The notes beneath the pieces were generated by a model. The model saw only the letters and a list, made by a program, of their open reading frames with translations, did no database searches and was not told the DNA's origin. A stretch of DNA of 51,756 bases from Alphaproteobacteria bacterium (GTDB taxonomy: Bacteria; Pseudomonadota; Alphaproteobacteria; Rs-D84), in NCBI GenBank assembly GCA_017427405.1, contig JAFRSV010000016.1, positions 95,333 to 147,088 on the forward strand. Reading direction: 5' to 3'. The translations under genes were made by a program, and so were the position numbers. Of the stretch, positions 5,415-7,371 are shown piece by piece (the first letter of the stretch is position 1; every line of letters begins with the position of its first letter).

Positions 5415-5515
5415 ATGGTGTCCTGAAACAAGTTCAGGATGATAAAGTATTAGTTTTTTGTCATGGCGGTCCTGAAACAAGTTCAGGATGACAAGAAACA
5501 AGTTCAGGATGACAA
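5415..5515. repeat. REP-like palindromes (three partial copies)
   Basis: The unit CCTGAAACAAGTTCAGG, an imperfect palindrome followed by ATGA, occurs at 5422-5438 and 5471-5487. A truncated third copy lacking the left arm (GAAACAAGTTCAGGATGAC) follows immediately at 5495-5513. This closely resembles the short palindromic repeat seen in many alphaproteobacterial genomes. The 312-bp gap 5303-5614 otherwise holds only the promoter region of the next gene. Confidence 0.75.
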
Positions 5516-5553: not shown

Positions 5554-5581
5554 TTGACATCATTATAAATTGTGCTATCCT
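5554..5581 (+). promoter_or_regulatory. Sigma-70-type promoter for the ACP-like gene cluster
   Basis: A perfect -35 TTGACA (5554-5559) is followed after 16 bp by TATCCT (5576-5581), a weaker -10. It lies 33 bp ahead of the first ACP-like gene, whose ribosome site AAAGGA is at 5602-5607. Confidence 0.5.
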
Positions 5582-5614
5582 TTCTGGCGGTATTTATAAC
5601 AAAAGGATAAAAAA

Positions 5615-6103
5615 ATGAATCAAACATTGGATGAAAAAATATTTGAAGAAATTCGACAATATATCGATAAAGAGTACAGTGTGCTATTTGGTATTACAGC
5701 AAAAGATGTTAAATCACCGGCCATTGATTTACGTTATGAATTGGGTTTAGATTCTCAAGATATGGTTCTTATGCTGGCTAATTTTGAAAAAAAGTATCAA
5801 CTTGATATTCCTGATGACAAAGCCGTAACAATTCGCACCGTTGGCGATGTGATAGATCTTATAAAGAGAATGAGTTCATTAGACTGGATACGCAATGGCC
5901 AGGTACAACCGGCAAAGGAAACCGTTGCACCGAAAGCCGCTGAACCCGTACAAAAGCCCGCTATTCAAAAACCATCGGCCATGGTGTTGTTTTTTATGAC
6001 GCGTGGCGGGGAAAAGTTGCCTCGTAAAACGCCGCGGAAACCGGTGGGCAAATTCGTAATGCCACAAAAACCCATGATGTTTAACCCAGGTAAAAAAAGA
6101 TAA
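5615..6103 (+). CDS. Acyl-carrier-protein-like protein with basic tail (first of three)
   Basis: The first 85 or so residues have the ACP fold pattern: a helix 1 region, then LGLDSQDMV with Ser47 as the predicted 4'-phosphopantetheine site, an acidic helix (LANFEKKYQLDIPDD), and the closing TVGDVIDLIKR. Normal ACPs end here at about 78 residues. This one continues with a Pro/Ala/Lys linker (about 98-122) and a basic tail that includes MVLFFMTRGG and ends GKKR. The linker resembles that of the next gene (both contain WIRNG and then AAEP-QKPA), so the two are recent relatives. No fatty-acid or polyketide synthase gene is nearby. Function is unknown; carrying an acyl or amino-acyl group is inferred from the Ser motif. 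Confidence 0.8.
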   Translation: MNQTLDEKIFEEIRQYIDKEYSVLFGITAKDVKSPAIDLRYELGLDSQDMVLMLANFEKKYQLDIPDDKAVTIRTVGDVIDLIKRMSSLDWIRNGQVQPAKETVAPKAAEPVQKPAIQKPSAMVLFFMTRGGEKLPRKTPRKPVGKFVMPQKPMMFNPGKKR

Positions 6104-6128
6104 AATAAAAAACTAAAAGGATGGAAAA

Positions 6129-6926
6129 ATGAATAAAACAATAGATGAACAAATACTTGAACAAATTCGGCCGTATATCTCCGATAAGTTGGGGGTTGGC
6201 CCAGAAGAAGTCACACTGGGGGCAGATTTACAAAATGATTTGGGTGCGGACTCTCTGGATATGATTGAAGTAATCATGGAGTTTGAAAGAAAGTTTAGTT
6301 GTAGCATTCCCGACGAGCAACAAGAGTTAATTCGGACCATTGGTGATGTGGTAAGTGCCGTAAAAGAAACAAGCACATTGGAATGGATACGCAATGGGCA
6401 TACACAGTCGACCGCAACGGTTGCGAAACCGGCCGCAGAACCGGAACAAAAACCGGCCGTTTTGAATAGTGGAACAGTGGCGAAAAAATTTGTGATGGTT
6501 CAAAACTTTACTTATGACCCCAATACCCCGGATTATTCGGGTCGGGCGACACAAATAAATGTAGGTGTGATATCCGAAGAAGTTCGGAAAAATTTTATTG
6601 AATGTATTCGTAATTGCAAACCCATAGATGGAAATAAATTCCATTGTGGGTTCGATGTCTATTGTGATGACAAGACGGGATTCGAAGTAAGACCAAATCG
6701 TAAACAACCGGCGGTGGATTGGAATGTGCCGGATTGCCTTAATCGTGCCGGCAAGAATGAAATGGTTATTGAAATGCGACCAGGAAAATTGAAAGAAACC
6801 GATTGTCCTGTGTCGCGCAGCCACGATTGTCCGTTGTGCATTGCATCGGGGAAATGTCCATCACCATTTATCAAAAAATATATCGGTAAAGTTTTCTTTC
6901 CCAACCAATATGGAAAACAAAGATAA
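6129..6926 (+). CDS. ACP-like domain fused to a Cys-rich C-terminal domain (second of three)
   Basis: Residues 1-85 form a canonical ACP with LGADSLDMIE (Ser42 as phosphopantetheine site), EFERKF and IRTIGDVVSAV. After WIRNG comes a Pro/Ala linker (about 95-115). A C-terminal domain of about 135 residues follows, not recognised, with Cys residues spread through it and a tight group CPLCIASGKCP near the end; it could bind metal or be disulfide-linked. The protein ends in GKQR, like the third member. A good AAAGGA precedes the ATG, 25 bp after the first gene. A fused enzyme or partner domain acting on the group carried by Ser42 is one possibility. No known ACP fusion matches this that I can name. 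Confidence 0.8.
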   Translation: MNKTIDEQILEQIRPYISDKLGVGPEEVTLGADLQNDLGADSLDMIEVIMEFERKFSCSIPDEQQELIRTIGDVVSAVKETSTLEWIRNGHTQSTATVAKPAAEPEQKPAVLNSGTVAKKFVMVQNFTYDPNTPDYSGRATQINVGVISEEVRKNFIECIRNCKPIDGNKFHCGFDVYCDDKTGFEVRPNRKQPAVDWNVPDCLNRAGKNEMVIEMRPGKLKETDCPVSRSHDCPLCIASGKCPSPFIKKYIGKVFFPNQYGKQR

Positions 6927-6945
6927 AAATTAAAAAGAATATAAA

Positions 6946-7341
6946 ATGACAGAGGAACAAATACTTGAAAAATTGAAGTTTATTCTTGTGTATCATTTGG
7001 CTGTTGAGCCATCTGATATTACAATGGATGCTGATTTATCATATGATTTGGGCGGAGATTCGATGACTCTTTATAATATACGATACGAATTGCACAAAGA
7101 ATTTGGTATTAGTTATCCTTATAGTGTACAAGAAGAGTCCGAGTATGTAGAAAACGAAATACATACTGTTGGTGACGTGGTAGAATTTATAAAGAGAAAG
7201 TTATATGGTGCGCAAGAAACACAAACCTTGCAAAAATCGGATGTGAAAAACAAGCCTGAGAAAAATTCGATAAATAAAAAAGTTCCAAAATCAAACATGG
7301 TTTTGTTCTTGGCTATGTCTAAATGCCGCAAACAAAGATAA
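6946..7341 (+). CDS. Divergent ACP-like protein with basic tail (third of three)
   Basis: This 131-residue protein keeps the ACP outline: an N-terminal helix (EQILEKLKFI), DLGGDSMTLYNI with Ser39, then HTVGDVVEFIKRK. It is more divergent than its two neighbours, having a longer loop (about residues 57-68) before the last helix. The tail is Lys/Asn-rich and includes MVLFLAMSK, similar to MVLFFMTRG of the first member, and it ends CRKQR. It has only a weak ribosome site (AAAGA) and follows the second gene by 19 bp. An intrinsic terminator directly after it ends the three-gene unit. Confidence 0.72.
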   Translation: MTEEQILEKLKFILVYHLAVEPSDITMDADLSYDLGGDSMTLYNIRYELHKEFGISYPYSVQEESEYVENEIHTVGDVVEFIKRKLYGAQETQTLQKSDVKNKPEKNSINKKVPKSNMVLFLAMSKCRKQR

Positions 7342-7348
7342 AAACAAA

Positions 7349-7371
7349 CCCCGAATTTTTTCGGGGTTTTT
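7349..7371 (+). terminator. Intrinsic terminator of the ACP-like unit (bidirectional)
   Basis: The stem CCCCGAA (7349-7355) pairs with TTCGGGG (7360-7366), followed by a run of five T. On the other strand the stem is followed by TTTGTTTTT. It can therefore also serve prmC, whose stop codon at 7370-7372 touches the T-run. Confidence 0.88.

Follow-up and report, generated by a model that had tools for sequence, protein, structure and literature searches.

Acyl-carrier-like proteins with exchangeable, basic-ended tails at a hypervariable locus in an uncultured alphaproteobacterium: tentative candidates for type IV secretion

The window analysed here is a stretch of 51.8 kb from a 1.06 Mb genome (95% complete), in which a unit of three genes (P1–P3; Table 1) is located between an MBL-fold hydrolase gene and prmC. 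The products of these genes carry domains related to acyl carrier proteins (ACPs), followed by C-terminal regions foreign to ACPs. We found that the unit belongs to a shuffled, lineage-specific family in which the ACP is one module among others, and that it represents one state of a hypervariable cassette locus, the bacterium itself being a host-associated alphaproteobacterium with a reduced genome. The lineage is probably Candidatus Enterousia, of the order Rs-D84, to judge from the genome size and the ruminant-gut origin of related genomes; this group is described as genome-reduced and as likely to depend on partners for its way of life (PMC12306168). The reading that we favour, tentatively and at less than even confidence, is that P1–P3 are candidate substrates of the VirB4/VirD4-type type IV secretion system (T4SS) of this genus, with basic C-terminal signals.

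ACP domains and C-terminal modules of P1–P3

The original prediction that these proteins contain true ACP domains is supported by their PF00550 scores (32.2, 45.1 and 27.2 bits for P1, P2 and P3, respectively), all above the gathering cut-off of 20.8 bits, and by the Ser of a DSL-type motif in each of them; the structure model of P2 also shows an ACP fold. All three fell below the cut-off of 70.45 bits for housekeeping AcpP (TIGR00517), with 45.3, 69.6 and 44 bits, and their lengths (Table 1) compare with about 77 aa for that family. The ACP of P2 exceeds the cut-offs of two NCBIfam ACP subfamilies. The PHROGs matches of P1–P3, to ACP families and families of unknown function, lie over the ACP part, except that one weak match of P1 extends into its tail, and the three tails fall outside every known ACP subfamily searched (Pfam, NCBIfam and PHROGs). 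The earlier observation of three ACP-like proteins with C-termini not typical of ACPs was therefore confirmed, each protein keeping the Ser and ending in K-x-R, but the motif CPLCIASGKC, previously described as the end of P2, actually lies 22 residues ahead of its C-terminus.

Table 1. Features of the three-gene unit in the window, contents of the prmC-adjacent site in seven other genomes of the genus, and loci with a second Cys motif
Feature	Position	Strand	Remarks
Promoter candidate, sigma-70-like	5554..5581	+	TTGACA-16-TATCCT, with TG ahead of the second hexamer
P1	5615..6103	+	162 aa; ACP domain (Ser47), linker and P1-type tail; last residues GKKR
P1 Ser47 codon	5753..5755	+	candidate phosphopantetheine site
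P1 tail module (SAMVLFFMTRGG...KFVMPQKPMMFNPGKKR)	5975..6100	+	in G125 (L157) behind two different ACPs
P2	6129..6926	+	265 aa; ACP domain (Ser42), linker and Cys-rich domain; last residues GKQR
P2 Ser42 codon	6252..6254	+	candidate phosphopantetheine site
P2 Cys-rich module	6480..6923	+	residues 118-265; conserved Cys C173, C226, C234 and C243
P3	6946..7341	+	131 aa; ACP-like domain (Ser39), linker and short MVLFLAMSKCRKQR tail
P3 Ser39 codon	7060..7062	+	candidate phosphopantetheine site
P3 tail module KSNMVLFLAMSKCRKQR	7288..7338	+	a P1-type ACP in G114 (L113) has a tail of this kind
10-pair hairpin AAACCCCGAA-TTTT-TTCGGGGTTT	7346..7369	.	flagged on the - strand
prmC site, G106			one Cys-rich protein
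prmC site, G162			ACP-Cys fusion and two Cys proteins
prmC site, G116			ACP-Cys, 79-aa Cys protein, Cys, ACP-Cys
prmC site, G131			ACP-Cys, 87-aa protein, ACP-Cys
prmC site, G123			unrelated 248-aa protein and two ACP-Cys genes with disrupted ends
prmC site, G114			87-aa protein, ACP with P3 tail, ACP-Cys; contig stops short of the hydrolase side
prmC site, G125			two ACPs with P1 tail and a 103-aa protein
Second small Cys motif	L107:4811-5050, L102:3297-3557, L110:8679-8960, L050:2188-2619, L055:2014-2463		distinct from the P2 domain

The fetched loci encode 27 ACP-like proteins of at least 96 aa, 24 of them with the Ser; L053 and L054, both with the Ser, have a C-terminal ACP and were dropped, leaving 25 tailed proteins, P1–P3 included. 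The Ser is retained in 22 of these 25 and replaced in the other three, by Ala and by Gly in two G096 proteins and by Glu in one G004 protein. This pattern makes it likely that most members have a phosphopantetheine role, which seems to be dispensable in some. The window's own genome has one match to holo-ACP synthase (AcpS; PF01648) and three PP-binding matches besides P1–P3. One of these we take to be AcpP beside a FabF-like gene, and the other two are adjacent ACPs of an aryl-polyene-like cluster (L038, G000:C2:12000-24000), to which we also assign ligase-, acyltransferase- and ketosynthase-like genes, in a genome of about 1 Mb.

The Cys-rich domain of P2 matched no Pfam, PHROGs or PADLOC model. 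Its four conserved Cys residues probably bind metal, and the domain, with strands predicted at E3-9, E24-31, E57-62, E66-70, E78-82 and E94-100 of the model (pLDDT 80.4, pTM 0.80), is predicted to be of the alpha/beta type; a comparison with solved beta-grasp domains left that fold no more than a possibility. Homologues, stand-alone or fused, were present in 47 of the 157 genomes of the genus and, by profile search, in 80 of 202 genomes of the order; in the collections searched, the domain was confined to this genus and two genomes of its family. In the fetched loci, 27 of the 37 members lack an ACP and 10 are ACP fusions (12 members have more than 60 residues ahead of the match, but L131 and L047 are partial matches without an ACP). 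The named relatives among the loci encoding the domain are uncultured Alphaproteobacteria or proteobacteria, and the titles of 11 such loci include goat reticulum, yak rumen, water buffalo rumen, yak omasum and red deer. The domain had no match in phage and plasmid records or in viral contigs (one peptide pattern scanned, 53 stretches checked), and these results, together with the lack of a PHROGs match, led us to reject a mobile-element origin. Five loci encode, alone or behind an ACP, another small Cys motif, C-x2-T(G/D)-x2-C with a further Cys pair after it (Table 1).

The promoter candidate has the top score among 13 sites, where 6.7 were expected by chance, and is suggestive only as the promoter of the unit. 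The downstream hairpin, which was not above the shuffled expectation, is possibly a terminator that P3 shares with prmC, the two genes being convergent. Just 5' of P1, the palindrome-like CCTGAACTTGTTTCAGGA occurs in two exact copies (window positions 5421-5438 and 5470-5487), for a chance expectation of none; L113 has one copy, and there was none in six other loci checked.

A hypervariable locus and the exchange of modules

The site adjacent to prmC was read in seven other genomes of the same genus, and each of them had a different content and gene order (Table 1). The order of the window was found in none of the seven, so a conserved three-gene system is not supported. Nor was a synthase, a ligase or a transferase visible in any of the eight locus versions read, including that of the window. 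Members of the same families also occur between gatC and gatA, between rnhB and pgk, and after a glycyl-tRNA-synthetase-like gene. A Cys-rich-type gene (L042:1931-2350 and homologues) was found between gatC and gatA in nine loci read, which suggests that fixed housekeeping sites have received insertions repeatedly. A second fixed site (L154:2397-2936, L155:2960-3589 and L156:2724-3651), next to what we take to be tsaB- and rimI-like genes, is occupied by ACPs whose linkers are long and Lys-rich, and a neighbouring ACP-like protein of G096 has a Gly where the Ser would be expected.

The ACPs and their tails are, on the evidence of nucleotide comparisons, exchangeable modules, with the switch from one to another falling close to the linker. 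An ACP-Cys fusion from G096 and a stand-alone Cys protein from G131 were 93-100% identical per 10-codon block across the Cys domain, with 83% identity in its first block. The ACP and most of the linker of P2 were 67-100% identical to those of a G116 fusion, and identity beyond the linker was 20-81%, mostly below 65%. P1 and a G114 protein have ACPs that are 90-100% identical and different tails, that of G114 being of the P3 kind, and the two ACPs of G125 that share the P1 tail are different from each other. The same Cys module can therefore be found fused or alone, and near-identical ACPs can carry different tails. Alignments had also suggested that the P1 tail was a deletion remnant of the Cys-rich domain, but this interpretation was dropped, as G125 has the same conserved tail module. 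The dN/dS values for twelve gene pairs (0.17-0.58) indicate purifying selection, which is weak in some genes.

The basic C-terminal ending

Of the 764 distinct genes in the fetched loci, 80 had the ending [KRNQ]-x-R, and these fell into 35 clusters with no similarity to one another at E 0.001, although these loci were picked around ACP and Cys-rich matches and the rates therefore describe a non-random sample of the genomes. It was present in 79 of 514 proteins shorter than 300 aa versus 1 of 250 proteins of at least 300 aa, and the same pattern accounted for 1.0% of internal positions. By type of family (L144 and L145, from other genera, and short automatic loci excluded), the ending was carried by 6 of 283 conserved, 50 of 205 variable and 24 of 276 single-genome genes. 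At four fixed sites, Arg was the last residue in 23 of 39 island genes versus 10 of 176 other genes, and K or R in 29 of 39 versus 67 of 176, where the 39 leave aside three versions of the MBL-prmC site (those of the window, of L106 and of L113) and three weak ORFs (score under 9; two end in K-x-R, one of those being Cys-rich), and the 176 include some island genes from other sites. In a sample of the window's own genome, 11 of 259 genes had the ending, three of them being P1–P3, so it is uncommon outside such loci in this genome. K or R is the last residue in 23 of the 25 tailed ACP-like proteins, the two exceptions being G123 ORFs with disrupted ends. The last 20 residues of P1, P2 and P3 have net charges of +5, +5 and +6, against -5, -11 and -11 for their first 88 residues.

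All six Arg codons and all three stop codons are used at the ending, and we therefore rejected a DNA-level tag in which KQR would be a by-product of the repeated element AAACAAAGATAAAA; a genome search for this element, allowing one mismatch, gave 13 places, and the reversed control 6. The last Arg codon is AGA in 49 of 80 genes, versus 83 of 552 internal Arg codons, an over-use that could mean that the nucleic acid carries some of the signal; both AGA and TAA are preferred at the gene end. Under a crude hydrophobicity rule, 5 of 127 exported-looking proteins (including P3) and 61 of 408 cytosolic-looking proteins have the ending. L047:33-2731 (G016:C55) holds a row of five small consecutive ORFs, from about four families, each of which ends in KQR or KTR, the Arg codon differing among them. 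Its first and fourth ORFs are homologous (33% identity), the third contains the end of the Cys-rich domain, and the last encodes a lipoprotein-like protein ending in KEKQR. Another row, of ten consecutive genes (L110:3014-8960, in G131:C2), eight with a terminal Arg, includes the module YEKTLPA(E/D)YLEYKQAVEHYRDSLMxAKGR, recurrent in other proteins.

Candidate functions and known systems

Four explanations were ordered by our confidence in them: delivery by the T4SS, resident carriers, protein stability and, lastly, competition or defence. The first place of the T4SS rests on the layout of P1–P3, with an acidic start and a basic end as in type IV substrates, and on the K or R ends of nearly all the tailed ACPs; type IV substrates commonly have basic or hydrophobic C-terminal signals (PMC8714903), although a basic end is not peculiar to them. 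The proteins would consist of an N-terminal ACP domain, which could be converted into the holo form by the resident AcpS, a flexible linker and an exchangeable C-terminal module with a basic end, typically K-x-R. The constant end would be the address signal read by a VirD4-type coupling protein, the acidic ACP domain would serve as cargo or payload, and the four-Cys domain, which probably binds metal, could be a second payload or a docking module. We infer secretion here from the basic end of the sequences. The T4SS coupling protein was found in 144 of 152 genomes of the genus, and VirB4 in 15 of 16 other genomes tested; both ATPases are present in the window's own genome. Seven of the eight genomes without a coupling-protein match have VirB4, so there is no clean negative group, and with a coupling protein in nearly every genome of the genus, co-occurrence is uninformative about the link. 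The presence of the same ending on proteins that look Sec-exported or membrane-bound argues against its being a T4SS signal. A VirB10-like protein was found in four of the five genomes searched but not in the window's own genome, which also counts against T4SS delivery. No host-directed or toxic activity was visible.

A broader form of the T4SS reading, which we consider improbable, would make K-x-R a genus-wide address tag on some 35 unrelated small families, recognised by the coupling protein, with P1–P3 as acyl carriers sent into a partner cell and their tails swapped by recombination whenever partners change; the translocated holo-ACP modules would then carry in or capture acyl groups in that cell. 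In openly licensed PMC text, we found no paper on Enterousia with type IV secretion, on an ACP domain effector with type IV secretion, or on an ACP with a C-terminal extension and a cysteine-rich region in Alphaproteobacteria, and the passages of PMC11077975 consulted name neither Rs-D84 nor Enterousia. If the tail is a secretion signal, it would allow the effectors of this uncultured gut lineage, which probably depends on partner cells, to be sought by sequence, and P1–P3 would be, to our knowledge, the first candidate secreted acyl carriers. Even if it is not, the ACP domains here are modules that are shuffled freely and fused to a four-Cys domain not described before, with no recognisable synthase for fatty acids, polyketides or peptides beside them.

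The original prediction suggested that the unit may be an undescribed carrier system, which is supported only in part. In this explanation, which is possible but which we rate below T4SS delivery, the holo-ACPs would remain in the cell as specialised carriers, the C-terminal module docking them to a particular membrane site, metal or enzyme, as part of a lipid or acyl-peptide tailoring branch specific to the lineage. The ACP domains themselves (that of P2 passing two subfamily cut-offs), the Ser in most tailed members, the AcpS match and the tails outside known subfamilies are consistent with such carriers, and the genome has, besides AcpP by a FabF-like gene, two ACPs in an aryl-polyene-like cluster. 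However, no modifying or loading enzyme was seen to travel with the locus in the seven related genomes, and no partner enzyme was found. The unit is not conserved and its tails vary among close relatives, the Ser has been lost in three proteins, and most Cys-rich members have no ACP. A family of exchangeable modules therefore fits these data better than a carrier pathway.

It is less probable still, and in our view unlikely, that these are fast-evolving lineage-specific genes in which the basic ends only stabilise the protein or aid translation termination, the ACP modules having spread by recombination without any function in common with the other K-x-R proteins. The preference for AGA and TAA at the gene end and the AT-rich composition agree with this explanation, as do a general bacterial bias towards C-terminal K/R, with lysine notably raising expression, and the higher expression obtained with charged or polar C-termini in Mycoplasma, both from a single study (PMC7246954). 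However, a general bias fails to explain why the ending is nearly absent from long proteins and rare in conserved ones within these genomes; moreover, it is Arg that is strongly raised in the island genes, with all six of its codons in use. A competition or defence locus, with interbacterial toxins and immunity proteins or anti-phage genes varying in an arms race, is the least probable explanation and a very doubtful one: the hypervariability at fixed sites among housekeeping genes and the small unrelated ORFs with an occasional lipoprotein would suit it, but, among the proteins scanned, PADLOC gave one weak match only (11 bits) and there was no toxin-type Pfam match, Pfam gave nothing for four other island proteins, and the Cys-rich domain was not found in the phage and plasmid records or, with one peptide pattern, in viral contigs.

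AcpM-type ACPs (NF040636) have an extension beyond helix IV, but the cut-off of this family is 146 bits, and P1, P2 and P3 scored 34, 49.3 and 26.8. The peptide-maturation family TIGR04069 is, by its name, also a small ACP-like protein outside fatty-acid synthesis; P1 reached 16.3 bits against 70, P2 and P3 were not among the listed matches, and no peptide-maturation genes were recognised adjoining the unit. P1–P3 resemble acyl carrier proteins in general (PF00550 and the PRK00982 subfamilies of NCBIfam) in their DSL-type Ser, their scores over the Pfam gathering cut-off and the fold modelled for P2, but differ from them in having exchangeable C-terminal modules and no adjoining fatty-acid genes, and in varying between close relatives. 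For the translocation proposed here as a candidate only, the closest comparison is with the Bep effectors of Bartonella, in which a changing N-terminal module (FIC or pY) is followed by a BID domain and a positively charged tail (PMC8714903). The BID family was absent from the Pfam matches of P1–P3 up to E 1, and the C-terminal domain of P2 is predicted to be alpha/beta with four conserved Cys rather than the four-helix bundle of BID. The likeness lies in an N-terminal module that varies, a positively charged C-terminal end that is constant, and resident VirB4/VirD4-type ATPases.
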